This document shows positions 2,412 through 30,389 of a stretch of DNA of 32,371 bases, in pieces. The first letter of the stretch is position 1, and the number at the start of each line of letters is the position of its first letter. Source of the stretch: Paludisphaera soli. GTDB taxonomy: Bacteria; Planctomycetota; Planctomycetia; Isosphaerales; Isosphaeraceae. The DNA lies in contig NZ_JAALJI010000043.1 of NCBI RefSeq assembly GCF_011064595.1, forward strand, positions 1 to 32,371, read 5' to 3'. Made by a program: the position numbers and the translations under genes. The notes below the pieces were generated by a model. That model did not search any database, had not been told where the DNA came from, and worked only from the letters and a program-made list of their open reading frames with translations.

Positions 2412-2462
2412 CGATCGACCTCATCCGCAAGGCCCTCCCTGACCCTGACCATCGGTCGCGGG
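2412..2462 (-). repeat. Orphan copy of the parA leader and start codon
   Basis: This 51-bp stretch matches 46 of 51 positions with 16046-16096, which on the minus strand holds the Shine-Dalgarno (AGGGAGGGCC), the ATG and the first four codons (MRSI) of the intact parA. Here the match ends after those codons and no ParA coding sequence follows. The ATGA overlap at the start codon is also kept. It marks a lost or truncated second partition locus. Confidence 0.85.
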
Positions 2463-2697
2463 CCTCCGGGGGCCCCTCCGCCTCGCGGGCGGGTGGGGTC
2501 GCGCGATCGGGATTCCGCGAGCTCCGGATTCTTCGAGATGCCGGCCTTTCGGGCGCGACGCCGCAGCCTCTGGATCTTGAATCTCAGGATCCCCCGATGC
2601 TCGGGGCCTGCGGGCCCACGATTCCGGAAGTCTGCGGGTCCTGGATGCCAGGGACCCTGAGCGTCGAAAGCTCGGGGGGTTATGGAGGCCTGCGCTC
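2455..2697. repeat. Second degenerate 8-bp tandem array (about 28 units)
   Basis: Beginning at the shared GTCGCGGG end of the leader copy, the sequence can be cut into units close to G-C/T-N-Y-N-N-R-R. Positions 2582-2653 hold nine units in strict 8-bp phase (for example TCTCAGGA, TCCCCCGA, TGCTCGGG, GCCTGCGG, GCCCACGA); in all nine, position 4 is a pyrimidine and position 8 a purine. Elsewhere units of 5-10 bp interrupt the phase. It has the same consensus and the same place relative to the leader as the longer array at 16085-16640. Confidence 0.75.
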
Positions 2698-7649: not shown

Positions 7650-10600
7650 ATGGCCTTCAACTCGATCGCGTCCCGCTTGCGAAGCTCCGCCGGCGTGCGA
7701 AAGGCCCGGCCGTCGAACGGGACGCGGCTGCGGCCCCGACTGGAGCTCCTGGAAGATCGGATCGAGATGTCGGCGGGCGGTGGCTGGGTGTCTGGCGTCC
7801 AGGCGGGCAGGCCGGGGGTGGGGGTCTTCGGCCAATACTACGGATCCTCCCAGCCGTCGGGCGCGCCGTCGTTCGTCCGGTGGGACGACCGGATCGATCT
7901 CCTCTCGCTCGGCGGCGGGTCGGGGCCGGGGGGCTCGCCCAGCCCGGGCTACACCGTCGCCGGCTCCGGGTGGTCGGCCGAATGGTCCGGCACGCTGACG
8001 GCCAACTTCAGCGAGCCTTACACGTTCGCCGTCAACTCGGCGGGCGACGGCGTCCGCTTGTGGGTCACGCCCGCCGGGCAGGAACGCGGCGCCCCCTTGA
8101 TCGATAGCTGGGCGGCCCACGGCCAGACGGCCTACGCGGCCACCGTGCCTCTCACGGCCGGCCTGTACTACGACGTCGAGGTCGATTACGCCTATGGCTC
8201 GGGCTCGGTCCAGCAAGTCCAGCTCCAGTGGTCCAGCCCGAGCACCCCCCTCGAGGCGATCGAGCCCGTCACGCAGGTCGGGGTGAACGTCACGGGCGGC
8301 GACACGCTCTTCGCCAACATGGTCAACGCCACGACTCGAAACGCCTGGACGGTGCCCGGGAGCTCGAGCCAGCAGGTTCCCACGGACGCCAACCTCTGGC
8401 CGCGGGGCGACGCCACCCTCCTCTTCGGCGAGGGGGACGACACCACCACTCTCCGGGGGACCTACCTGGTCCGATTCGCCGGGATGGCGACCGTCACGGC
8501 CTCACACGCCGTCACCTGGGTCGTGGACGGGGCGACTTCGACCGGTGCCACGCTCCACGCAGGACAGGGATACGATCCTTCGACCAACACGACGACGGCC
8601 TTGATGGTCAAGGAAGCCGGGCCGACCGGCTTCAACCTGTCGTTCGTCAACACGAGCCGCGGGCCGAATCCGGGCCTGGGCGTCTCCAGCATCAAACAGG
8701 TCGGCAGCACCGTGACGGTCGCCGTCCCCTCCGTCGCCGGCTTGGCCAAGAACCAGAAGGTGACCATCGCCGGCTTCAGCGGCCCGGTCGCCCGATACAA
8801 CGGGACGTACACGATCTCGAGCGTCGACACATCGACGAACACCTTCACCTACGCTCTCACCGCCCTCAATCTGCCCGCGAGTTCGGGCGGCGTGGCGATC
8901 GCGAATCCGGGTGACGGCATCACCGATCTGTTCGTGATGCGGCCGTCGACGCTGGGCGGCGACACACCGTTGCCCGCGGGCACCCTGTTCAATCCGGCCT
9001 CTCTGGCCATGTTCGCCCAGTATTCGACTCTGAGGACGATGGACGTCGCCCGTACCAACCTCACCTTGGCGTCCGACTGGTCGGATCGAACCCTGGTCTC
9101 GCACAATCTATGGAACTCCTACAAGACGCTGGGCGGGTCCGTCACGACGGGCGTGACCATGGCGCCGCAGCCCGCCGGCGTCCCGTGGGAGGTCCAGGTT
9201 GCCCTGGCGAACGAGACTGGCAAGGATATCTACATCAGCGTCCCTGTCAATGCATCGATCGAATACATCAGGAACCTCGGCAACCTGTTCGCCTACGGGA
9301 GCGACGGATTCGCCCCGTACACGAGCCGCCAGGCGAATCCCGTCTGGAAGCCGCTCAACGACAACCTCAAGGTCTACGTCGAGTTCTCCAACGAGGTCTG
9401 GAACACCGGCTTCCGTCAGTCGTCGACCCGAGGCAACGGCTGGGCCAACCAGCTGAGCCAACGGGCCCTCTACGACTTTCTGACCGGCAATCGAGACGAC
9501 CCCCTGTATCCCGGCGGCGGGTCCGCCGCGTACGACGACGGGGCCGCGCTGGCCGCCTACTTCAAGTTGGACGCTGCGAAAACGGCCGCGTTCCTGGCCA
9601 CCTATAGGCCCAATCCCGCGCCGGCGGGCGACGGCGGATCCCCCTCGTATTTCAACAACTCGGCGTCCCTCAACGGATTCACGACCGGCCAGGCCTGGAT
9701 CGGCCTTCGGACGGCGCAGATCAGCGAAGCCTTCAAGTCGGCGTTCGGCGAGACGAGCGTCGACGCGGTCGAGATGCGCAGCCGCGTCCGCCCGCTCGTC
9801 GAATGGCAGTACGGGGGCAATTGGAGCGCCGCGCTGAACTTCATCGACGGCTTCTACGGCACCCAACGACCGGTCTCCTACTACCTGTACGGCGGCGGCG
9901 GCGGCTGGTACGCGGACGCGCACGTCGGCGGCTTCAGCGACGTGTCCTTCATCAACCACTCGTTCGCCCAAGGAACCTCCGGCTGGGCCTTCGACGGCGG
10001 TTCCGGGGTCGTCCCCAATGGATCCAGCCTGGGCAACCCCGACGCCCCCCCCCCCTTCGCCGCGATCGCCGTCGCCGGCGGCGCAAGGCAGTCCGGCGAT
10101 CTCGCGACGATCACCACGACGACGCCGCACGACTTCCAGGTCGGTCAGGCTGTGAAGATCTCCGGAGTCGCCGTCAAGGGCTACAACGGTACGTTCACGA
10201 TCGTCAGCGCGACGGCCACATCGTTCTCTTTCAAGACCCCCGCGACCGGCCTCGGCGAATCCGGGAGCGGGATCGTGGTGGGCGTCGCCGGCGGTAGGCA
10301 GGCGGCCTACCTCAAGCCCGGATCCGGCGTCAGTCAGAACGTCACCTTCAGCGGGGGCTACGCCGACCTCACGTTCTACGCGACCCGGGTCGTGGCCGCG
10401 GGATCGACTCGCGGCCTCACGATCACGCTGACCCCCATCGACGGCGGTCCGGCCGTCAACGAGGGCCGGCCGATCCGCCTCAGCGAGGGGGCCTTCTCCT
10501 ACTCGGGGAACGGCAACGGATTCATCTGGAGCAGGACCGAGGCCTTCTACACCGGCGACTCCCCCTACACCTACACCGTCACCTTCGGCAACACGCTGCT

Positions 10601-13517
10601 CTCGGACACCATCTTCCTGGCCAGCCCCGCCGTCCAGACGGTGAACGGGATGTTCGACGAACTCACCCCGGAGTACAGGGCCGCCCTCGTCGACATAGGT
10701 CGAACGGTCCGATCGGACGTGGACCTCGCCCTTCAGTACGGGCTCCACGTCGTCGGGTACGAAGGGGGATTCAACTTCAATCAGAACCTCGGCAGCTACA
10801 TGGACCCCAAAGGCTATCAGAGCATGGGGGCCCGCGGGTACAGCAGCAGCGTGCCGAACGTCGGCATGTACGCCAACCTCGATCCCCGCGCCGAATCGTT
10901 GGCGGTCGCGACGCTCGAGAGCTTCTACGCGTCCGGCGGGCGACTGGCGATCGTCTACCAATCCTCCACGAACATCAACAGCTGGGGGGTCGCCGCCCCG
11001 ACGTTCTATGAGTGGGCTACGCCCAAGCAGGGTGCGGTGGTCCAGGTCGAGAGGACGGCGCACGCGCCTTCCCACGGGGCGGCCGCGGGCCAGGCGGGGA
11101 CCTACAGATTCTGGTGGCTGTCCCCCGGAGCCAGCATGTCCAGCACCCACCTGGTCTCGGAGGGCGATTATCAGCTGAGCATCAACCTCGCCGCCAACCC
11201 CAACGCCTCGGCGACCCAGACCGCCCCCGTCGCGGTGCTCGTCGACGGGCGGCTCGTCGACACGCTGACGGTCTCCGTCCGGCAGGGCGGCACGTACCGC
11301 GTACGGGTCGACGGGCTGTCGGCCGGCCAGCACTCCATCAAGCTGGTCTATATGCTGGCCCCGGGCGCTTCGTCGATCAACATGGGCCGCCCGGGCACTC
11401 CGATCATCCAGCTGGATCGCCTCGGGGCGGCAACCCCCGTGATCAAACCGATCGTCCCCTCCATACTCCTGGTCGAGCCGAGCTCGATCACCTACGGAAC
11501 TCCGCTGGGCGCGGCGATCCCTCGCGGCGTCGCCGAGGTGCCGGGCTACTTCTCCTACGATTACGAGGCGGGTGCGATCCTGACGGCGGGACTTCACACG
11601 GTCACCGTGGTGTTCACCCCGGCAGACGCGACCCATTACACGACGGTCGCCACGACGGTCGACGTGTTCGTCGCGAGGGCCCAGCCGACGATCGAACTGT
11701 CCGTGGGCTGGCAATCCGTAGGTTCGCCCGTGGGGGTCGCGGCGACCGTCGTCGGGACCCACGCCGACCTGGAGAGGCCGACGCTGCTGCTGACGTACAC
11801 GTATTATTCGGGCGACGCGGCGAGCGGGGATCCGCTGCCCGAGCCGCCGAATCAGGCCGGAGTCTACACCGTCGTGGCGAGCTTCCTCGGCAGCGGGAAC
11901 TACGCGCCGGCCTCGGCCCAGGCTACGTTCACGATCTACTCGACCACCCTAACCGGGCCCGTCGCCACGACCATATCCCCGATCGCAGGATCTCCGAGGA
12001 GCTCGGCCCTCACGAGCGTCGAGGTCACCTTCGGCAGGCAGATCGACCTGGGCACGTTCGACTGGCGCGACCTCTGGCTCAGTCGCGACGGCGGCCCCAA
12101 TCTGATCAATGAGGCCGTGAGCATCACGCTGATCTCCGGATCGACCTACAGGATCGACGGACTCGCCGGCCTCACGACGGTGGACGGCTCCTACTCGTTC
12201 GCGGTCGACGGGCTCGGGTTGGTCACCTTCGGCGACGGCATCCTGGACGCGACGGGCGGTACCTCCGCCGAGATCGACCTCGCCTCGTGGATCATGGATT
12301 CGACCGCCCAGCCCGAGCCGACGCCCGCGCCCGAGCCGACGCCCGCGCCGACGCCCGCGCCCGAGCCGACGCCCGAGCCGACGCCCGCGCCCGCGCCGAC
12401 GCCCGCGCCCGAGCCGACGCCCGCGCCGACGCCCGAGCCGACGCCCGCGCCGACGCCCGAGCCGACGCCCGCGCCGACGCCCGAGCCGACGCCCGCGCCC
12501 GAGCCGACGCCCGAGCCGACGCCCGCGCCCGAGCCGACGCCCGCGCCGACGCCCGCGCCGACGCCCGCGCCGACGCCCGCGCCGACGCCCGCGCCCGAGC
12601 CCGAGCCGCTGACCTTCCTCGACCTCGGCCCCGACGGGCTCTGGGTGTCCAGCGTCACGCAGGGCGTTCGCAAAATCCACGACGCCAATCCGAAGAACGT
12701 CGTCGCTTCGAGCAACCAGGCCGCGTACGTCGACTTCGGCGTCGCCGGCCTGTGGGCCTGGGACGAACGGCGGGGATTCCGGCGACTCTCCGAGTCCAGC
12801 CCGCAGGACTATGTGGTCATGAACGACGGCGGCCCCCGCGCCGAGGACGTCCTGCTCGTCGATCGCGGGCCCTCCGGACTCTGGCGCTGGAGCGAGAGCC
12901 AGGGCTTGGTCCGCATCAACCACGTCGACCCTCGCTCGATCGTCGTCGACCGCCAGGACGCCTACGTCGACTTCGGCCACGGCGGCCTCTGGCGGTATCG
13001 CGACGCGGCGACGCCCTGGTCGAAGCTCAACGACGCGGTGCCGGAGTCCATGTCCGCCGACGGCGTGCTGTTCCTGGACTACGGCGCGCAGGGGACCTGG
13101 AGTTGGGCCTCCGCCCAGGGCTGGCGCAAGGTGGGTAATGGAAATCCCCAGGCGATCACCTCCTCCGGCGGCTCGCTCTTCGCCGATTACGGCGCCGCCG
13201 GCGTCTGGGGCTGGACCGACGCCGCCGGCTGGTTCCAGATCAACGCGGCCGACCCGCGTTCGATGCGGGCGGCGGGCGGTACGCTGTTCCTGGACTTCGG
13301 CGCCCACGGCCTCTGGTCGTGGACGTCGGCCTCGACGCCCGCCGCGGCGTCGCGGCTCACGAGGCTGACCGACGCGGCCGTCGACTCGTTCGTCGTCGGC
13401 CGAGGGGGCGATCGGGTGGTCGTCGACGCGGGCGCCGCCGGCGTCTGGGTCTGGACCCGCGACGGCTACCGCCGCCTCAACGCCGCGAACCCCAAGGGCA
13501 TCGCCGTGACCGCCTGA
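7650..13517 (+). CDS. Giant surface or secreted multidomain protein with glycosidase-like core, 1955 aa
   Basis: The N-terminus carries [14 protein letters not shown], a motif planctomycetes often place at the start of large exported proteins. Residues about 55-210 resemble a PA14 sugar-binding domain. A TIM-barrel-like region starts near 450 and holds VEFSNEVWN at about 574-582, which resembles the NE acid/base motif of clan GH-A glycosidases; [10 protein letters not shown] near 1033 could carry the nucleophile. Two copies of a YNGT(Y/F)TI module lie at about 344-419 and 806-880, the second inside the barrel region. Ig-like domains occupy about 1273-1548, a Pro-Thr linker about 1555-1653, and eight repeats of 36-44 residues (VDFG..GLW.W......RLN...P) end the protein. 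The start at 7650 has AAAGGG at 7638-7643. Polysaccharide binding or cleavage at the cell surface is inferred, not shown. Confidence 0.85.
12312..12608 (+). repeat. Hexamer-based repeat encoding a Pro-Thr-Ala/Glu linker
   Basis: About 300 bases are built from the hexamers CCGACG, CCCGCG and CCCGAG, encoding [13 protein letters not shown]-type sequence. The linker separates the Ig-like part of the giant protein from its eight C-terminal repeats. Such tracts are stiff, extended and usually vary in length between strains. The same stretch is open in other frames purely because of its composition. Confidence 0.9.
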
Positions 13518-14965: not shown

Positions 14966-15310
14966 TCAGCCGACCCGGTTGACGTTCCATTTGGGCAGCG
15001 CCTTGTCGAGGACCTCTTCGGCGATCTCGCTGATCTTCCGCCCCCGCTGGTAGGCCAGCATACGGAGCCGGAAGTGGACGTCTTCGGAGAGGTAGATGCG
15101 CCGCCCCTCCAACTTGACCTCGGTCGTCGCGCCGGCCTTCCGGCTGCGGACTCGGCGCGGGGTCTTCACTTCGGCCGTCGTCCCGTCGGCCTGATCGTCG
15201 CCCCCCTGCCCCGCCTCGACGGCGGCCAGTTCGGGCGCGGCGTCGTCAAGCGGCGCGGTCGGTCGGAGGATTCCCGCCGGGATCGACGATCCGGTCTTTC
15301 GCTCGGCCAT
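14966..15310 (-). CDS. Ribbon-helix-helix partner of ParA (candidate centromere-binding protein)
   Basis: Of its 114 residues, the first 65 are flexible and charged, while residues about 70-106 fit a ribbon-helix-helix fold: strand RRIYLSE, helix 1 DVHFRLRMLAYQRG, helix 2 KISEIAEEVLDKAL. Type Ib partition operons pair a short ParA with a small RHH protein of this kind, which binds the centromere and stimulates the ATPase through its flexible N-terminus. The start at 15310 lies inside parA (65-bp overlap in another frame) and is backed by GGGAG seven bases upstream, so the two are translated from one message. A plain transcriptional repressor is the alternative; the position after parA argues for partition. 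Confidence 0.8.
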   Translation of the reverse strand: MAERKTGSSIPAGILRPTAPLDDAAPELAAVEAGQGGDDQADGTTAEVKTPRRVRSRKAGATTEVKLEGRRIYLSEDVHFRLRMLAYQRGRKISEIAEEVLDKALPKWNVNRVG

Positions 15311-16058
15311 TGATGATCTCCCGAGTCAGGGCCTTGTAAGCGGTCGCCCCGACGCTCGTCGGCGCGTAGGTGATGACGGATTCGTGGCGGGCGTGGGCTT
15401 CCTCGATCTTGATCGAGCGGGGGACCTTCGTATCGAAGACGAGCCCCCCGAACGCGGCCCGGAGCTGGTCTTCCAGGTCCCGGCAGACGTTGTTCCGCTC
15501 GGCCAAGGTGACGACCACGCCGGCTATCCGAAGCTTCGTGTTCCCGAGGTAGCGGCGGACCTGGGCGACGTCGTCTTGAAGCTGACCGAGGCCCAGCACG
15601 CCGAAGATGCCCGGGTTGAACGGCACGATGAGTTCTTCGACGGTGGTCAGGACGTTCGTCGTCAGCAGCGACCGCGTCGGCGCGGTGTCCACGAGGACGA
15701 AGTCATAGCGATCGGCGACGCCTTCGATCGCCGCACACAACCGCCGCTCACGTCCGATCTCGCCCGCCAGAACCACGGCCGCGTCGGCGAGCGTGGCGTC
15801 CGCCGGCAGCACGTCCACGCCCTTGAAGTGGGAAGCGACGATGGCTTCGTCCGCGCCGTCGCCTTCCACCAGGACGTCGAACAGGGACGGCCGACGCGGC
15901 TTCTCGCCTTTCAGGAGGACGAAGGACGCGTTGCCCTGGGGGTCCGTGTCGACGACGAGGACGCGACTCCCCTGCCCTCCCAGGACGGCGGCGACGTTCA
16001 GCACGGACGACGTCTTGGCGACGCCGCCCTTCTCCGACACAAATGCGATCGACCTCAT
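15246..16058 (-). CDS. parA: ParA-type partition ATPase, 270 aa
   Basis: This is a Walker-type ATPase that would bind the nucleoid with ATP and move or position plasmid DNA. Seen in the sequence: the deviant Walker A motif EKGGVAKTSS with its signature lysine at K10 and K15, the A' motif VVDTDPQGN at 35-43, and Walker B FVLVDTAP with D124. At 270 residues with no N-terminal helix-turn-helix it fits the short ParA type (Ib), in which the partner protein, not ParA, usually regulates the operon. The ATG at 16058 follows AGGGAGGGCC. Upstream lies the 8-bp repeat array; downstream the RHH partner overlaps its end. The leader and first four codons recur at 2412-2462. Confidence 0.95.
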   Translation of the reverse strand: MRSIAFVSEKGGVAKTSSVLNVAAVLGGQGSRVLVVDTDPQGNASFVLLKGEKPRRPSLFDVLVEGDGADEAIVASHFKGVDVLPADATLADAAVVLAGEIGRERRLCAAIEGVADRYDFVLVDTAPTRSLLTTNVLTTVEELIVPFNPGIFGVLGLGQLQDDVAQVRRYLGNTKLRIAGVVVTLAERNNVCRDLEDQLRAAFGGLVFDTKVPRSIKIEEAHARHESVITYAPTSVGATAYKALTREIINGRAKDRIVDPGGNPPTDRAA

Positions 16059-16096
16059 CCGTAAGGCCCTCCCTGATCATGGACATCGGTCGCGGG
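16046..16096 (-). repeat. parA leader with ribosome site and start (intact copy)
   Basis: This 51-bp segment is 46/51 identical to 2412-2462. It contains the parA Shine-Dalgarno, ATG and first codons, and ends in the first units of the repeat array. Conservation of the ribosome site together with the array edge suggests leader and array were copied as one unit. Confidence 0.85.
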
Positions 16097-16640
16097 TCTA
16101 TGGGTCTTGAGCCTTTCGACCTCGCGGACCCGTGACCCCCGGGACTTCCAAGTCCGAGGGGCTTTGAGCCCCGGAGCTTTCGACCCCGCCGGCCTTCGAC
16201 CCCAAGAGGTTCCGGAATCGAAGCCTTCCGGGTCCGCAAGCCTGCGGAATCCGGGGCCTGTGGGCTCATGAGTCCGCGAGTCTGGGAGCCTCGGATCCTG
16301 CGGACCCGTGGGCCCATGGGTTCGTGAGTCTCGGGGGTCCGGGGCCTGTGGAATCGTGGGCCGTTGGGCCTGCAATCTCATGGGCCGGAAGCCTCGCAGG
16401 ATGCGGGGCCCCTGAACCTGCGGGTCCGCGAGCCTCGGAGCCCATGGGCGCGAGGGATCGCGAGCCCGGGGGCCTGTGACCTCGAAGGCGCACGAACCCA
16501 AAGGCACCCGAGATCGAAGGCCCTTGGTTCCAGAGGCATCCAAGCCCAAAGGCATTCGATCCCAGAGGCACGGGAGTTCAACGGCCTTGGAGCGCACGAG
16601 CCCACGATGCCACGGGCCTTCGGATCCGGTCGGCTCGTCG
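16085..16640. repeat. Degenerate 8-bp tandem array upstream of parA (about 67 units), candidate partition site
   Basis: The whole gap between the winged-helix gene and parA divides into units of consensus G-C-N-Y-N-N-R-R (for example GCCTTGGA, GCGCACGA, GCCCACGA, GCCCATGG, GTCCGCGA). From 16424 to 16623 there are 25 units in unbroken 8-bp phase. By hand count, position 1 is G in 20, position 4 a pyrimidine in 25, position 7 a purine in 24 and position 8 a purine in 25. Nearer parA, units of 6-10 bp break the phase. Since 8 is not a multiple of 3, codon structure does not explain the period. Its place beside parA and an RHH gene suggests a centromere or operator made of short boxes; this role is inferred. 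Confidence 0.8.
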
Positions 16641-16644
16641 GGGT

Positions 16645-17517
16645 TCAACTGGACGGGGCGGGGGAGGGGCCCCCGGGGGCCTTCCCGCCGTAACGCTTCC
16701 GCACCTCTGCGAGTTGCCTTTGAAGCTCAGCAGGGGTCATCCGACGGCGGCCCGGGAGCGGCCCCCAGGCCGCCCGCCTGGCGTCCTTGAAGCAACCCAC
16801 GGCCATTCCCTCGACGATCCGCCTAACGTCGTCCTGGGGCGTCCTGGACGGTCCTGACGGGGGCGACGATCGGCGGGGTTCCTCGGATCGTTGGGGAGGG
16901 GGCTCGGCGGGCGTCGGCGGGGCGGGGGAAGGGACCGGCTGGCGGAAACCCTTGCGGCCCGCTTCGATCATCGCCCTGAGGAACCGGGCGGCTTCCGCCG
17001 GCTCGGGGACCACGCTTTCCGGATCTTCCTCGGTCGAGAGAATCGGGGCGGTCTGATCCTGGACCTGTGTCGAGCTCTGGTTAGTTAGATGCTCGCGCCT
17101 AACCTCCTTAGGCGCTGGCGTCGGACCCCTTAGATCCTCGCGCCTAACGGACGCCTGTTCAGTTAGACTCTCGCGCCTAACCCCCTCCCAGGCCACGAGG
17201 ATCCCGGTGCGGATCCGGCCCCCGGCGGTCAACTCGCGTCGGATCAGGCCGGCGGATTCCAACCGTCCGAGGGCCCGACTGATCGTCATGGGGCATCGGC
17301 CGAGGATGCGGCCCATCGTCGCGTTGCTGAGGCGGGAGCGCCAACCGCGAGACTTGGCGTTGTCCAGGATCAGCACGAACGCCGCACGGGCGGTCTGATC
17401 CAGCTTGAGGCCGTCCAAGCCGGTCGGGTCGGCTCGGAAGGGAAAGGGGATTTGGCGGGTCGCGCCGCGCTCTTCGCGCACGACCGCCTTGACTCGCAGG
17501 GGGCTGGAGTGGATCAT
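16645..17517 (-). CDS. Winged-helix DNA-binding protein, candidate plasmid replication or copy-control protein
   Basis: This 290-residue protein has a winged-helix domain at about residues 35-110 (LDQTARAAFVLILDNAKSRG, NATMGRILGRCPMTISRALGRLESAGLIRREL). Next come three VRRE.L(T/R) motifs at 113-145, a Pro/Ser-rich disordered stretch, and a C-terminal helical segment (DDVRRIVEGMAVGCF, TPAELQRQLAEVRKRYGG). The single wing, C-terminal disorder and position before parA suggest a replication initiator or regulator, but no initiator family was recognised. The start at 17517 (MIHSSPLRVK) follows AGGT. A longer form from 17580 is open, but would run through a strong hairpin and has no ribosome site. 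Three iteron-like DNA repeats lie inside the gene. Confidence 0.65.
   Translation of the reverse strand: MIHSSPLRVKAVVREERGATRQIPFPFRADPTGLDGLKLDQTARAAFVLILDNAKSRGWRSRLSNATMGRILGRCPMTISRALGRLESAGLIRRELTAGGRIRTGILVAWEGVRRESLTEQASVRREDLRGPTPAPKEVRREHLTNQSSTQVQDQTAPILSTEEDPESVVPEPAEAARFLRAMIEAGRKGFRQPVPSPAPPTPAEPPPQRSEEPRRSSPPSGPSRTPQDDVRRIVEGMAVGCFKDARRAAWGPLPGRRRMTPAELQRQLAEVRKRYGGKAPGGPSPAPSS
17084..17181. repeat. Three intragenic iteron-like 20-bp repeats
   Basis: The copies are 17084-17103 (GTTAGATGCTCGCGCCTAAC), 17129-17148 (CTTAGATCCTCGCGCCTAAC) and 17162-17181 (GTTAGACTCTCGCGCCTAAC). Most have GTTAG/CTAAC ends. An inverted half-site TTAGGCGC at 17108-17115 pairs with GCGCCTAA at 17095-17102. 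They sit inside the winged-helix gene, in its VRRE-motif region, with start-to-start spacings of 45 and 33 bp. They look like binding sites of a replication or regulatory protein. Confidence 0.7.
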
Positions 17518-17539
17518 TGGTTCTACCTGTTGATTTTCT

Positions 17540-17576
17540 AGCCCGGCCGGTGTTGGTCGCACCGTCCGGGCTTTTT
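17540..17576 (+). terminator. Intrinsic terminator-like hairpin facing right, in the winged-helix gene's leader
   Basis: The sequence forms AGCCCGGCCGGTG, loop TTGGTCG, and CACCGTCCGGGCT with one mismatch, followed by TTTTT on the plus strand. It lies just upstream of the leftward gene start at 17517, so it would end a transcript running antisense to that gene. Alternatively the hairpin acts in the gene's own leader. Confidence 0.6.
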
Positions 17577-17682
17577 CCATTTCGAAGCGTGGCGATTCTC
17601 GCGCGCATCCGGGCTTGATGCCAGGGGGGCGCGGCCGGTCGGTTCATCGCTTAAGCGGGATCACCACCAGCGTCCCCGACCG

Positions 17683-19438: not shown

Positions 19439-21847
19439 ATGAGAGTCAACGACGACATGACCGGCTTCGACGACGATGCCGACTGCAACGACTTCGACGA
19501 CGCTCCCGACGTGGCGTGCGTCGTCGAGCTTGACGCCCTCGACGCTGTCCCGGCTGAGCTTCGGCGTCTTCCGCGATGGGTCGTCTGGCGGACGATCGTC
19601 CGGAACGGCAAGGCCACCAAGGTCCCGTTCCAAGTGGGCGGATCCGCCGCCTCGACGACCGACCCGGCGACCTGGACGACGTTCGACGCGGCTGCGAAAG
19701 CCTTTCGCGAGGCGGCCCCCGGCCGGCTCGATGGTTTGGGCTTCGTGTTCACCGGGGGCGACCCTTACGTCGGGGTCGACTTCGACGGCTGTCTGATGGA
19801 CGGCGGGGAGATCGCCGGATGGGCCCAACTGTGGCTCGACCGCCTGCGAGGCGGCTACATGGAGGTTTCGCCGAGCGGCAAGGGCGTCAAGGTCTGGGTT
19901 CGCGGCAAGCTCTCCGGGGGCGGCTCCAAGCGTCAGGTCGGTGAGGGCGAGCGTACGGCGATCGAGGTCTACGACGAGAAGAGGTATTTCACGGTCACAG
20001 GCGTCGCCTTGGGACGCCCTGACGGGGCGATCCCGGAGCGGCAAGAGGTCGTCGACGACTTGTACCGCTGGGTGAAGGAACGGCCGTCCGAGAGGTCTGA
20101 GACACCCCCGGCGAACCGGACGGGGGGGCTTCGCGTCCGGGACACGTCGGGGCCCATGACCGACGAGCAACGGGCGTCCGCCTATCTGGCGAAGGTCGAT
20201 CCAGCCATCGAAGGTCAGGACGGATCCGGGACGACGCTCCGGGCGGCCATGATCGGCCCCGGGTTCGACCTGGCGCCCGACGTCGCCTTTCGGCTCCTGA
20301 GGGATGAGTACAACCCTCGCTGTGAACCGCCGTGGTCGGACAAGGATCTTCGCCGCAAGGTCGATCAGGCGTACCTGAAAGAAGGCCGCCGGGGTTGGTT
20401 GCTCGACGCGGGCGGGGGTCGGACGGGGCAGGGGGGCGACGAGGCGGAAAGCCTGGACGCCGTGCTCGCCCGGAAGGCCCGGACCGACATGGGCAACGGG
20501 GAGCGGTTCGCGGCCCGCCACGGCGGCGACGTGCGGTACTGCAAGCCGTGGGGCGACTGGCTCGTCTGGGACGGCCGGCGGTACGCCGTGGACCGGACGG
20601 GGGCCGTCCAGCGCCTGGCCAAGGATACGGCGCGCAGGATCCTCGTCGAGGCGGCAACGCTCGACGGCGACGATCAGAAGCGCCTCGCCGACCACGCGAT
20701 TGCTTCCCAGTCGAAGACGCGCATCGACGCCATGATCGCGATGGCGGCGACCGAACCGGGGATCCCCATCCTGCCCGAAGAGATGAACCGGGACGGCTGG
20801 CTGCTCAACTGCCGGAATGGGACGATCGACCTGCGGACGGGGGAGCTACGGCCCCACGATCGGGCCGACCTGATCACTCAGCTATGCCCGGTCGACTTCG
20901 ACCCGGACGCGGAATGCCCTCAGTGGGAAGCGACCCTCGACCTGTTCTTCGACAAGAACCAGGCCCTCATCGCCTACTGGCAACGCGTCTGCGGCTACGC
21001 GCTCGTCGGCGTGGTCCGCGACCACGTCATGCCGGTCTGCTACGGGGACGGGTCCAACGGCAAGAGCACGATCCTGGGGACGCTGCTGGACGTCCTGGGG
21101 ACCTGCTACGCCATGAAGGCGCCGCCCGCGATGCTGATGGCGAAGGCCGTCGAGTCGCACCCGACGGACCGGGCCGACCTGCACGGGAAGCGGCTCGTGG
21201 TCGCCATCGAGACCGAAGCCGGGCGGCGGCTCGACGAGGTCATGGTGAAGGAGTTGACGGGCGGCGACCGGATCCGGGCCCGACGGATGCGGCAGGACTT
21301 CTGGGAGTTCTCGCCGACGCACACGATCATCATGGCCACGAACCACAAGCCCGTGGTCAAGGGGACGGACAACGGCGTGTGGCGTCGGCTCCGGATGATC
21401 CCCTTCGCGGTGAAGGTCGACGCGGCGAACGCGGACACCGCGATGCCGGACAAGCTCCGGGCCGAGTTCCCCGGGATCCTGGCGTGGTGCGTCCGGGGCT
21501 GCCTGGCGTGGAAGGAAGTCGGCCTCGCCGAACCGGACATCGTCTCTAAGGCGACCGCCGAGTATCGGTCCGAACAGGACGTCGTCGGCCTGTTCCTCGG
21601 CGATCGGGCGTTGCTGGATCCGTCGGTCAAGAGGCGATGCAGCGAGGTCTACCAGGCTTACCAGTCGTGGGCAGAGTCGGCTGGAGAACGGGCGATGACG
21701 CTCCGGGCCTTCGGCGACGCCATGAAGGAACGCGGCGTCGAGACTAAGACGAGCAACGGCAAGTGGTACGTCGGCGTAGGGCTGAAGCCCCTTGGTTCGG
21801 GGCAGGCGGAGCGCGACGACGAGCGATCGGAACAGTGGAACAGATAG
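19439..21847 (+). CDS. Primase/superfamily 3 helicase of phage-plasmid type, 802 aa
   Basis: The N-terminal part (about 33-170) resembles primase-polymerase-associated domains (AELRRLPRWVVWR, GLGFVFTGG, then YVGVDFDG with the acidic pair D114/D116). The C-terminal half is a D5/P4-type helicase: GWLLNCRNGTIDLRTGEL, then Walker A GDGSNGKST at 536-544, Walker B RLVVAIETE at 585-593, and motif C HTIIMATNHKP at 628-638. A winged-helix tail follows (SEVYQAYQSWAESAGE). Such proteins open and prime the origin of phages, satellites and plasmids. The ATG at 19439 is preceded by AAAGAG; a second ATG at 19457 is possible. It is the best evidence that this region replicates, or once replicated, on its own. 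Confidence 0.9.
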   Translation: MRVNDDMTGFDDDADCNDFDDAPDVACVVELDALDAVPAELRRLPRWVVWRTIVRNGKATKVPFQVGGSAASTTDPATWTTFDAAAKAFREAAPGRLDGLGFVFTGGDPYVGVDFDGCLMDGGEIAGWAQLWLDRLRGGYMEVSPSGKGVKVWVRGKLSGGGSKRQVGEGERTAIEVYDEKRYFTVTGVALGRPDGAIPERQEVVDDLYRWVKERPSERSETPPANRTGGLRVRDTSGPMTDEQRASAYLAKVDPAIEGQDGSGTTLRAAMIGPGFDLAPDVAFRLLRDEYNPRCEPPWSDKDLRRKVDQAYLKEGRRGWLLDAGGGRTGQGGDEAESLDAVLARKARTDMGNGERFAARHGGDVRYCKPWGDWLVWDGRRYAVDRTGAVQRLAKDTARRILVEAATLDGDDQKRLADHAIASQSKTRIDAMIAMAATEPGIPILPEEMNRDGWLLNCRNGTIDLRTGELRPHDRADLITQLCPVDFDPDAECPQWEATLDLFFDKNQALIAYWQRVCGYALVGVVRDHVMPVCYGDGSNGKSTILGTLLDVLGTCYAMKAPPAMLMAKAVESHPTDRADLHGKRLVVAIETEAGRRLDEVMVKELTGGDRIRARRMRQDFWEFSPTHTIIMATNHKPVVKGTDNGVWRRLRMIPFAVKVDAANADTAMPDKLRAEFPGILAWCVRGCLAWKEVGLAEPDIVSKATAEYRSEQDVVGLFLGDRALLDPSVKRRCSEVYQAYQSWAESAGERAMTLRAFGDAMKERGVETKTSNGKWYVGVGLKPLGSGQAERDDERSEQWNR

Positions 21848-30349: not shown

Positions 30350-30389
30350 GGATCACGATTCAACTTGAGGGATCACGATTTAACTTGAG
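30350..30389 (+). repeat. Tandem pair of 20-bp repeats
   Basis: GGATCACGATTCAACTTGAG is followed directly by GGATCACGATTTAACTTGAG (19 of 20 identical). It lies 115 bases before the PEP-CTERM gene at 30505, a plausible place for an activator or repressor site. Confidence 0.7.

Follow-up and report, generated by a model that had tools for sequence, protein, structure and literature searches.

A long array of degenerate 8-bp boxes upstream of parA as a probable type Ib partition centromere in Isosphaeraceae

Which function can be assigned to a tract of short degenerate repeats that fills the gap between a parA gene and its upstream neighbor? This question is raised by the stretch analyzed here (hereafter the window), a complete contig of 32,371 bp from a genome of 7.97 Mb in 197 contigs. 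A terminal overlap as a sign of circularity was looked for on the contig and none was found, while a P4-type phage/plasmid primase at 19439-21847 (TIGR01613, E 9.6e-87) together with the partition genes indicates that the contig is plasmid-like. The array lies between parA and a gene for a 311-aa winged-helix-like protein on the same strand (16645-17580). The following features are referred to below:

16091 to 16626, minus strand: array of 67 uninterrupted 8-bp boxes (autocorrelation, period model), putative centromere and operator
16059 to 16090, minus strand: leader between the array and the parA start, with a purine-rich AGGGAGGG stretch that by eye is ribosome-site-like
15246 to 16058, minus strand: parA, encoding a 270-aa ParA-family ATPase (AAA_31, E 8.4e-40, residues 1-177)
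14966 to 15310, minus strand: gene for an RHH-like partner of 114 aa, overlapping the 3' end of parA
2457 to 2696, minus strand: second, shorter array of about 28 boxes with the same code and two phase breaks
2412 to 2465, minus strand: duplicate of the leader and of the region at the parA start, adjoining the second array and not followed by a parA gene

Further repeats were seen in the window. A 12-bp repeat (GCCCGAGCCGAC) is present in about 26 copies at 12311-12608 within a 1955-aa ORF (7650-13517), and a 20-bp unit (GGATCACGATTCAACTTGAG) occurs twice in tandem at 30350-30389. A few copies of an inverted TTAG...CTCGCGCCTAAC-like motif were recognized by eye at 17078-17180 inside the 311-aa winged-helix ORF; they are iteron-like and could represent origin or autoregulatory sites.

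Period modeling revealed exactly 67 boxes at 16091-16626, i.e., an array length of 536 bp (67 × 8 bp) with no indels and one phase throughout; read on the parA-sense strand, the series begins at 16626 and ends at 16091 with no phase break. This agrees with an earlier note on this DNA, which had counted about 67 units of 8 bp and had described 25 of them, at 16424-16623, as being in strict phase; the latter statement was correct but too modest, since all 67 are in phase. The pattern reported for these 25 boxes was also found again: in the frame starting at 16424, position 4 is a pyrimidine in 25/25 and position 8 a purine in 25/25 (best 25-box stretch outside both arrays: 19, 22). The same note had named the lack of an 8-bp peak above shuffled sequence as a refutation; such a peak is present. 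At 16085-16640, the lag-8 identity of 0.40 (z 6.2) was reached by none of 1000 dinucleotide shuffles, and peaks at lags 8, 16, 24, 32, and 40 gave z values of 6.2, 10.1, 5.1, 12.2, and 6.2, respectively. With the same interval coded as purine/pyrimidine or as strong/weak, lag 8 resulted in z values of 10.1 and -1.3, respectively (500 shuffles each). A hidden-state period model with phase jumps, applied to the window and three complete relatives (L044, L045, and L046), led to the selection of period 8 among 14 periods by BIC. The period-8 score of the array was 0.58 versus a background maximum of 0.194, determined for 19,820 windows (400 kb) in 20 stretches of 20 kb that were sampled from nine contigs of this genome. 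There was also a hint of a 32-bp superperiod in the window (lag-4 box similarity z 4.15), which was not general among 13 arrays (lag-4 z of 4.1 in the window, 2.6 in L020, and at most 1.7 in the others; pooled 2.8). Four 8-bp steps would return a box to the same DNA face, and the superperiod of the window would fit such a return after four boxes; no conclusion rests on it.

Based on all 67 boxes, the consensus on the parA-sense strand is R-G-C-Y-C-N-N-R, with R in 60/67, R in 57/67, C in 45/67, Y in 67/67, and Y in 65/67 boxes for columns 1-5, mixed bases in columns 6 and 7, and R in 64/67 in column 8. When rotated, the box reads as a palindrome RRGCYY plus two free bases (NN), and the box matrix of the window changes little on reverse complementation (mean purine difference 0.045). 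When this dyad was tested by column permutation, we obtained p 0.098 for the window array and p <= 0.04 for seven of the eight other arrays tested at loci of the same partner type (RHH-A, see below; exception L051, p 0.193), while nominal significance (p <= 0.04) was obtained for four of ten arrays of a second partner type (RHH-B) and for L096. With 7/9 versus 4/10, the dyad thus appears clear in RHH-A and mixed in RHH-B. Two weak RHH-A arrays, L017 and L021, whose fitted boxes showed no clear code, were left out of the permutation test.

The composition of the boxes bears on the origin of the array as well. Slippage is a common source of tandem short repeats, and TRF called three short repeats inside the array (units of 48, 16, and 8 bp), as a neutral simple-sequence tract grown in this way might show. 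However, 61 different boxes are found among the 67, and still one column is a pyrimidine in every box, and the pitch is kept across 11 arrays despite GC contents of 0.42 to 0.73 (0.68 in the window). Absence of the array in most relatives, which would favor slippage, was not seen. Slippage was rejected on the finding that similarity between neighboring boxes is below that expected for random order (z -2.2 at lag 1 and -3.2 at lag 3), and we regard it as extremely unlikely. That the parA message has a structured RNA leader is hardly probable at all: though dinucleotide shuffles fold less well than the transcript (z -4.4, 0/100 as good), the latter folds no better than column- or box-order-shuffled sequence (z +1.4 and +1.5; 60 each), so that folding is explained as a by-product of the palindromic boxes and RNA structure was rejected, and Rfam resulted in a sub-threshold match to mir-657 only. 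A coding sequence was likewise rejected, since 8 is not a multiple of 3 and stops occur in most frames of most of the 11 arrays checked.

The genes next to the array resemble a type Ib partition pair. ParA has no N-terminal extension, as is characteristic of the short type Ib ATPases without an N-terminal DNA-binding domain, and it is followed by a small partner for which a flexible N-terminus and a C-terminal RHH domain have modest support. No structure was predicted for partner residues 1-60 (low pLDDT), while strands were predicted at 63-67 and 70-74 and helices at 76-89 and 93-104, with a beta-alpha-alpha domain at 70-104 and a block pLDDT of 78-88 over residues 71-100. Its structural neighbors were mostly RHH proteins at low Z (CopG 4.3, Arc 4.0, omega 3.3, and ParG 2.6), and every Foldseek match had E > 1. 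The window partner alone revealed no significant library match (FitA-like_RHH only, E 0.2); two of eight members of its family matched RHH_5 (best E 0.0027), and the family profile matched MatP, another RHH protein (E 0.0012). Altogether, several modest lines of support from sequence and modeling suggest that the protein encoded at 14966-15310 is RHH-like. No ParB family was among its Pfam matches, i.e., an HTH-type ParB as in type Ia (ParABS) systems was not found, and the locus was typed as RHH-A. A possible link between beta-strand residues and the box sequence, considered by eye only, is a lead. A scan of the genome contigs resulted in three loci, and a search of viral contigs for relatives of the RHH protein led to none that was confirmed.

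For a survey, every parA match (E <= 1e-30, n=93) in 45 Isosphaeraceae genomes was collected, the partner downstream was typed with profile models, and period 8 was scored in the 700 bp upstream (659-700 at short contigs) against 100 shuffles each. Scores were obtained for 92 loci, the upstream stretch of L104 (RNase-HIII type) being only 232 bp long. The signal was present at 32/32 loci with RHH-type partners and at 0/31 with ParB, so that the array stands beside related parA genes, where its absence would have been a refutation according to the earlier note. All 11 RHH-A loci had it with 0/100 shuffles as good, and all 21 RHH-B loci with at most 2/100 (0 in 16 of these), while the best ParB case had 11/100 shuffles as good. 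Among RNase-HIII neighbors and unclassified partners, single loci were positive, namely 1/18 (L079, score 0.14, 0/100 shuffles) and 1/11 (L096, score 0.30, 0/100 shuffles), respectively. The background maximum of 0.194 was surpassed by 11/11 RHH-A loci, 15/21 RHH-B loci, and 1/60 of all others (L096), which means that 26 of the 32 RHH-type loci exceeded every window of the 400-kb background. Weak scores were found for the RHH-B loci L029 (0.138), L036 (0.148), and L105 (0.154), the best window lay 630-690 bp upstream of parA in L022 and L036, and with 160-bp windows and 60 shuffles, 4/25 RHH-type loci (L017, L022, L029, and L037) were no better than the best shuffle. No Pfam family was matched by the RHH-B proteins, whose assignment is based on similarity to RHH-A at the profile level (E 1.2e-5, probability 81%). 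The L096 partner (198 aa) has a C-terminus that is RHH by eye only, and since Pfam and PDB sequence searches gave nothing significant, this locus was counted only as an array with an unclassified partner.

Arrays of 8-bp boxes were also identified upstream of parA in three closed plasmids, namely pOJF2_2 of A. giovannonii and pEP7_04 and pEP7_03 of Isosphaeraceae EP7, in each of which the array was the sole stretch scoring >0.20. They are located between the last annotated upstream gene and parA, according to gene tables that may be incomplete. No clear 8-bp array was detected for five RHH-A relatives (L122, L123, L125, L127, and L128) whose retrieved sequence has no related ParA, the best score being 0.17 (L122) versus a shuffled maximum of 0.13. 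The array is a real, functional-looking feature and is family-wide.

Some further loci are worth recording. On a 5.27-Mb contig, an apparently broken parA and RHH remnants adjoin an 8-bp array (L136, score 0.31), which suggests an integrated, decaying partition cassette. In another genome, an 8-bp array (L135, 1369-1990) lies beside a ParA that is followed by a single small partner, and the opposite strand carries another RHH-like ORF. Locus L050, an Isosphaeraceae-type parA-RHH locus, is found on a contig titled Candidatus Kuenenia MAG; the genome was placed in the family of the window, and the title may be wrong.

The distribution of the signal also speaks to a replication origin with Rep-binding iterons. 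Iterons are tandem repeats, the 311-aa winged-helix-like upstream neighbor could be a Rep protein, and in pOJF2_1 and pPALBO1 (both RHH-B) a replication initiator gene lies just past the RHH gene. It is, however, the ParA-RHH pair with which the array is associated: in pEP7_04, about 5 kb and two other genes separate the array from the annotated initiator, the signal is missing at all 31 ParB-type parA loci, and the ParB plasmid pPL62-2 has no 8-bp array around its parA and replication initiator. An origin is therefore very unlikely.

In a ParA tree of 45 rows (11 RHH-A, 21 RHH-B, four loci with 9-bp pitch, L096, four ParB, and four RNase-HIII), the RHH-A, RHH-B, and 9-bp groups formed one clade (100/100) of 32 Isosphaeraceae array-bearing ParAs plus four, with the four ParB-type and four RNase-HIII-type ParAs falling outside. 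L096 was on a very long branch, and its placement is unsure. Since the array-bearing ParAs share one clade, the association of array and partner reflects few events and not 33 independent ones. The array sequences themselves are nearly unalignable between systems, with two short blastn matches among 11 arrays; maintenance of the pitch, with diverging box sequence, is what recurs across the family at the sequence level. The longest unbroken runs in 13 arrays comprised 67, 59, 32, 42, 12, 16, 20, 28, 30, 25, 24, 20, and 25 boxes, four RHH-B arrays being represented by 280 bp only, and phase breaks ranged from 0 to 18 per array in the stretch given. A single register of 67 boxes was found in the window only, and unbroken phase is not general.

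The second array of the window reached a 12-box score of 44.1, while the maximum of 20 shuffled windows was -0.8 and the next-best score away from both arrays was -12.1. It may be an extra centromere, as pSM19035 likewise has several parS sites, or a decaying duplicate; decay is favored because of the two phase breaks. It also matters for the possibility that the array serves as an operator only, at which many RHH dimers repress parA-rhh while the true centromere lies elsewhere. The position upstream of parA would suit this, and RHH partition proteins are also repressors in the text cited from PMC5016525. Yet 536 bp would be far beyond the expected need of repression, the second array, which shares the code, is 13 kb distant and no parA follows it, no other periodic site above 0.20 occurs in the three closed plasmids, and known type Ib arrays serve both functions. 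We therefore consider an operator without centromere function unlikely.

Altogether, we are confident, with a small reserve, that a plasmid partition system of type Ib (ParA-RHH) uses the array as its parS/parH-like centromere and probably as its operator too. The array of the window, the RHH-A loci, and the contrast to ParB loci weigh most in this judgement. What was observed is the array of the window with its phase and dyad, a partner that is RHH-like, and a link between such arrays and RHH-type partition pairs. By analogy to published type Ib systems, binding, filament formation, ATPase stimulation, autoregulation, and segregation would follow, and the RHH protein most likely coats the array. 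One RHH dimer would bind per 8-bp box with its two-fold axis on the box dyad, its paired beta strands would read mainly the purine/pyrimidine pattern, and adjacent dimers would line up laterally as a spiral covering up to 67 boxes. Flexible N-terminal tails of the RHH protein would engage nucleoid-bound ParA-ATP and stimulate its ATPase, by which plasmid copies would be moved and separated, while binding to the array would also repress parA-rhh. This scheme is modeled on the portions cited from three accounts of type Ib systems (PMC9499535, PMC5016525, and PMC7308502).

More tentatively, the partition complex could consist of up to 67 RHH dimers in a single continuous filament that does not spread, specified by a palindromic purine/pyrimidine code and not by an exact order of bases, and the RHH lineage would determine the pitch (7, 8, 9, or 11 bp). 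We find this idea possible but on balance doubtful. According to the passages cited from the pSM19035 authors, RHH-ParBs cannot spread, so that dimer loading is limited, and the fit to the diffusion-ratchet model is unclear (PMC9499535). If true, such a filament would be the RHH route to gathering as many binding proteins as the spreading HTH-ParBs. The 67 contiguous boxes and the related runs of 12 to 67 provide a graded set for dimer number versus ParA activation, and pitches of 8 and 9 bp within one ParA clade make a link between RHH packing and DNA spacing testable. For Paludisphaera borealis, ParA and ParB are said, in the passage cited, to lie on different plasmids and both to be required (PMC5352709). 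We found a small RHH-B partner of its own and an array of 8-bp boxes for the ParA of plasmid pPALBO1 (L024/L188), which bears on this remark.

Boxes with other pitches were found beside related pairs. In another Planctomycetia family, 9-bp boxes were detected in the 170 bp upstream of parA at L121, L124, L126, and L132, a signal reached by 0/1000 shuffles in L124, L132, and L126 and by 32/1000 in L121. Like the window, these loci have a ParA of the same clade, an RHH-A-like partner, and tandem boxes just upstream of parA, whereas they differ in the pitch of 9 bp, in a box like ACGTYTCAG, and in a shorter or looser array, as judged from BIC favoring no period there. The pSM19035 delta control gave period 7. 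For the parFG region of a TP228-type plasmid with an identical ParG, period 8 was best by likelihood and rose above shuffles (29.7 versus a shuffled maximum of 10.9), although it was not favored over no period by BIC; the parH box spacing was taken from this sequence. In Selenomonas plasmid pSRC6 (L183), an AT-rich array of 11-bp pitch is located upstream of parA (0/1000 shuffles), and the partner revealed weak RHH matches (RHH_3, E 0.0031). Loci from Geobacter, Pelobacter, and Nostoc had best periods of 8, 12, and 9, respectively, somewhat above six shuffles, and those from Leptospirillum and Flavobacterium no period above shuffles; a Crinalium locus carries no annotated ParA and was left out of this comparison. 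As 8 bp is one of several pitches beside ParA-RHH pairs, it is not in itself new.

Among known systems, TP228 ParF/ParG/parH shares with the window a ParA-family ATPase, a small RHH protein encoded downstream, and a site upstream of the ATPase gene. In the TP228-type plasmid, ACTC boxes upstream of parF have a pitch of 8 bp as best by likelihood, which is also the pitch of the window. While parH consists of tetramer boxes with AT-rich spacers, a 294-bp gap, and about five phase breaks, the window array has GC-rich palindromic RRGCYY+NN boxes, 67 in unbroken phase, and no AT-rich spacers. The partner has no clear sequence relationship to ParG: the ParG family was absent from its NCBIfam/Pfam matches, ParG structure 1p94 gave Z 2.6, and tblastn found a Leptospirillum ParG at E 0.04. 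In the excerpt cited, parH is described as degenerate short boxes coated by ParG dimers (PMC7308502). The earlier note had likened the locus to delta/omega of pSM19035, which stands as regards a ParA-RHH pair with contiguous short boxes, but parH/ParG is the closer parallel in spacing because of its 8-bp pitch upstream of parF versus 7 bp in pSM19035. There, non-palindromic 7-bp WATCACW boxes are arranged as 7-10 per site at six sites, in contrast to the 8-bp palindromic, degenerate, GC-rich boxes of the window, 67 at the main site. Box contiguity is needed for ParA activation and function in pSM19035, as stated in the lines cited from PMC9499535, and by analogy the long uninterrupted phase of the window agrees with this requirement. 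Archaeal SegAB differs from the window in its scattered 13-bp chromosomal sites with no tandem array. It is presented, in the text cited, as a ParA-like ATPase with an RHH partner binding palindromes near its own operon (PMC12284271).

A search of titles and abstract openings in the openly licensed literature led to no description of such arrays in planctomycete plasmids. Plasmid pCXC100 belongs to a host of another phylum. Its ParA-RHH system is described in the section cited as a type Ib system whose centromere consists solely of direct repeats, and the same source gives a centromere upstream of the operon and a small binding protein with a flexible N-terminus and a C-terminal RHH domain as type Ib features (PMC5016525). 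Short repeats upstream of the operon are likewise present in the window, with 67 boxes in the putative centromere. The centromere reading of the earlier note is thus very likely right and well supported by comparison, but its "new type" was too strong, as type Ib short-box arrays are known, and the array is better described as a new variant of a type Ib centromere. While ParA-RHH systems with short-box arrays upstream and the 8-bp pitch of TP228-type ParF/ParG are already known, the array length, the GC-rich palindromic degenerate box, and, in the window plasmid, the unbroken phase are new.
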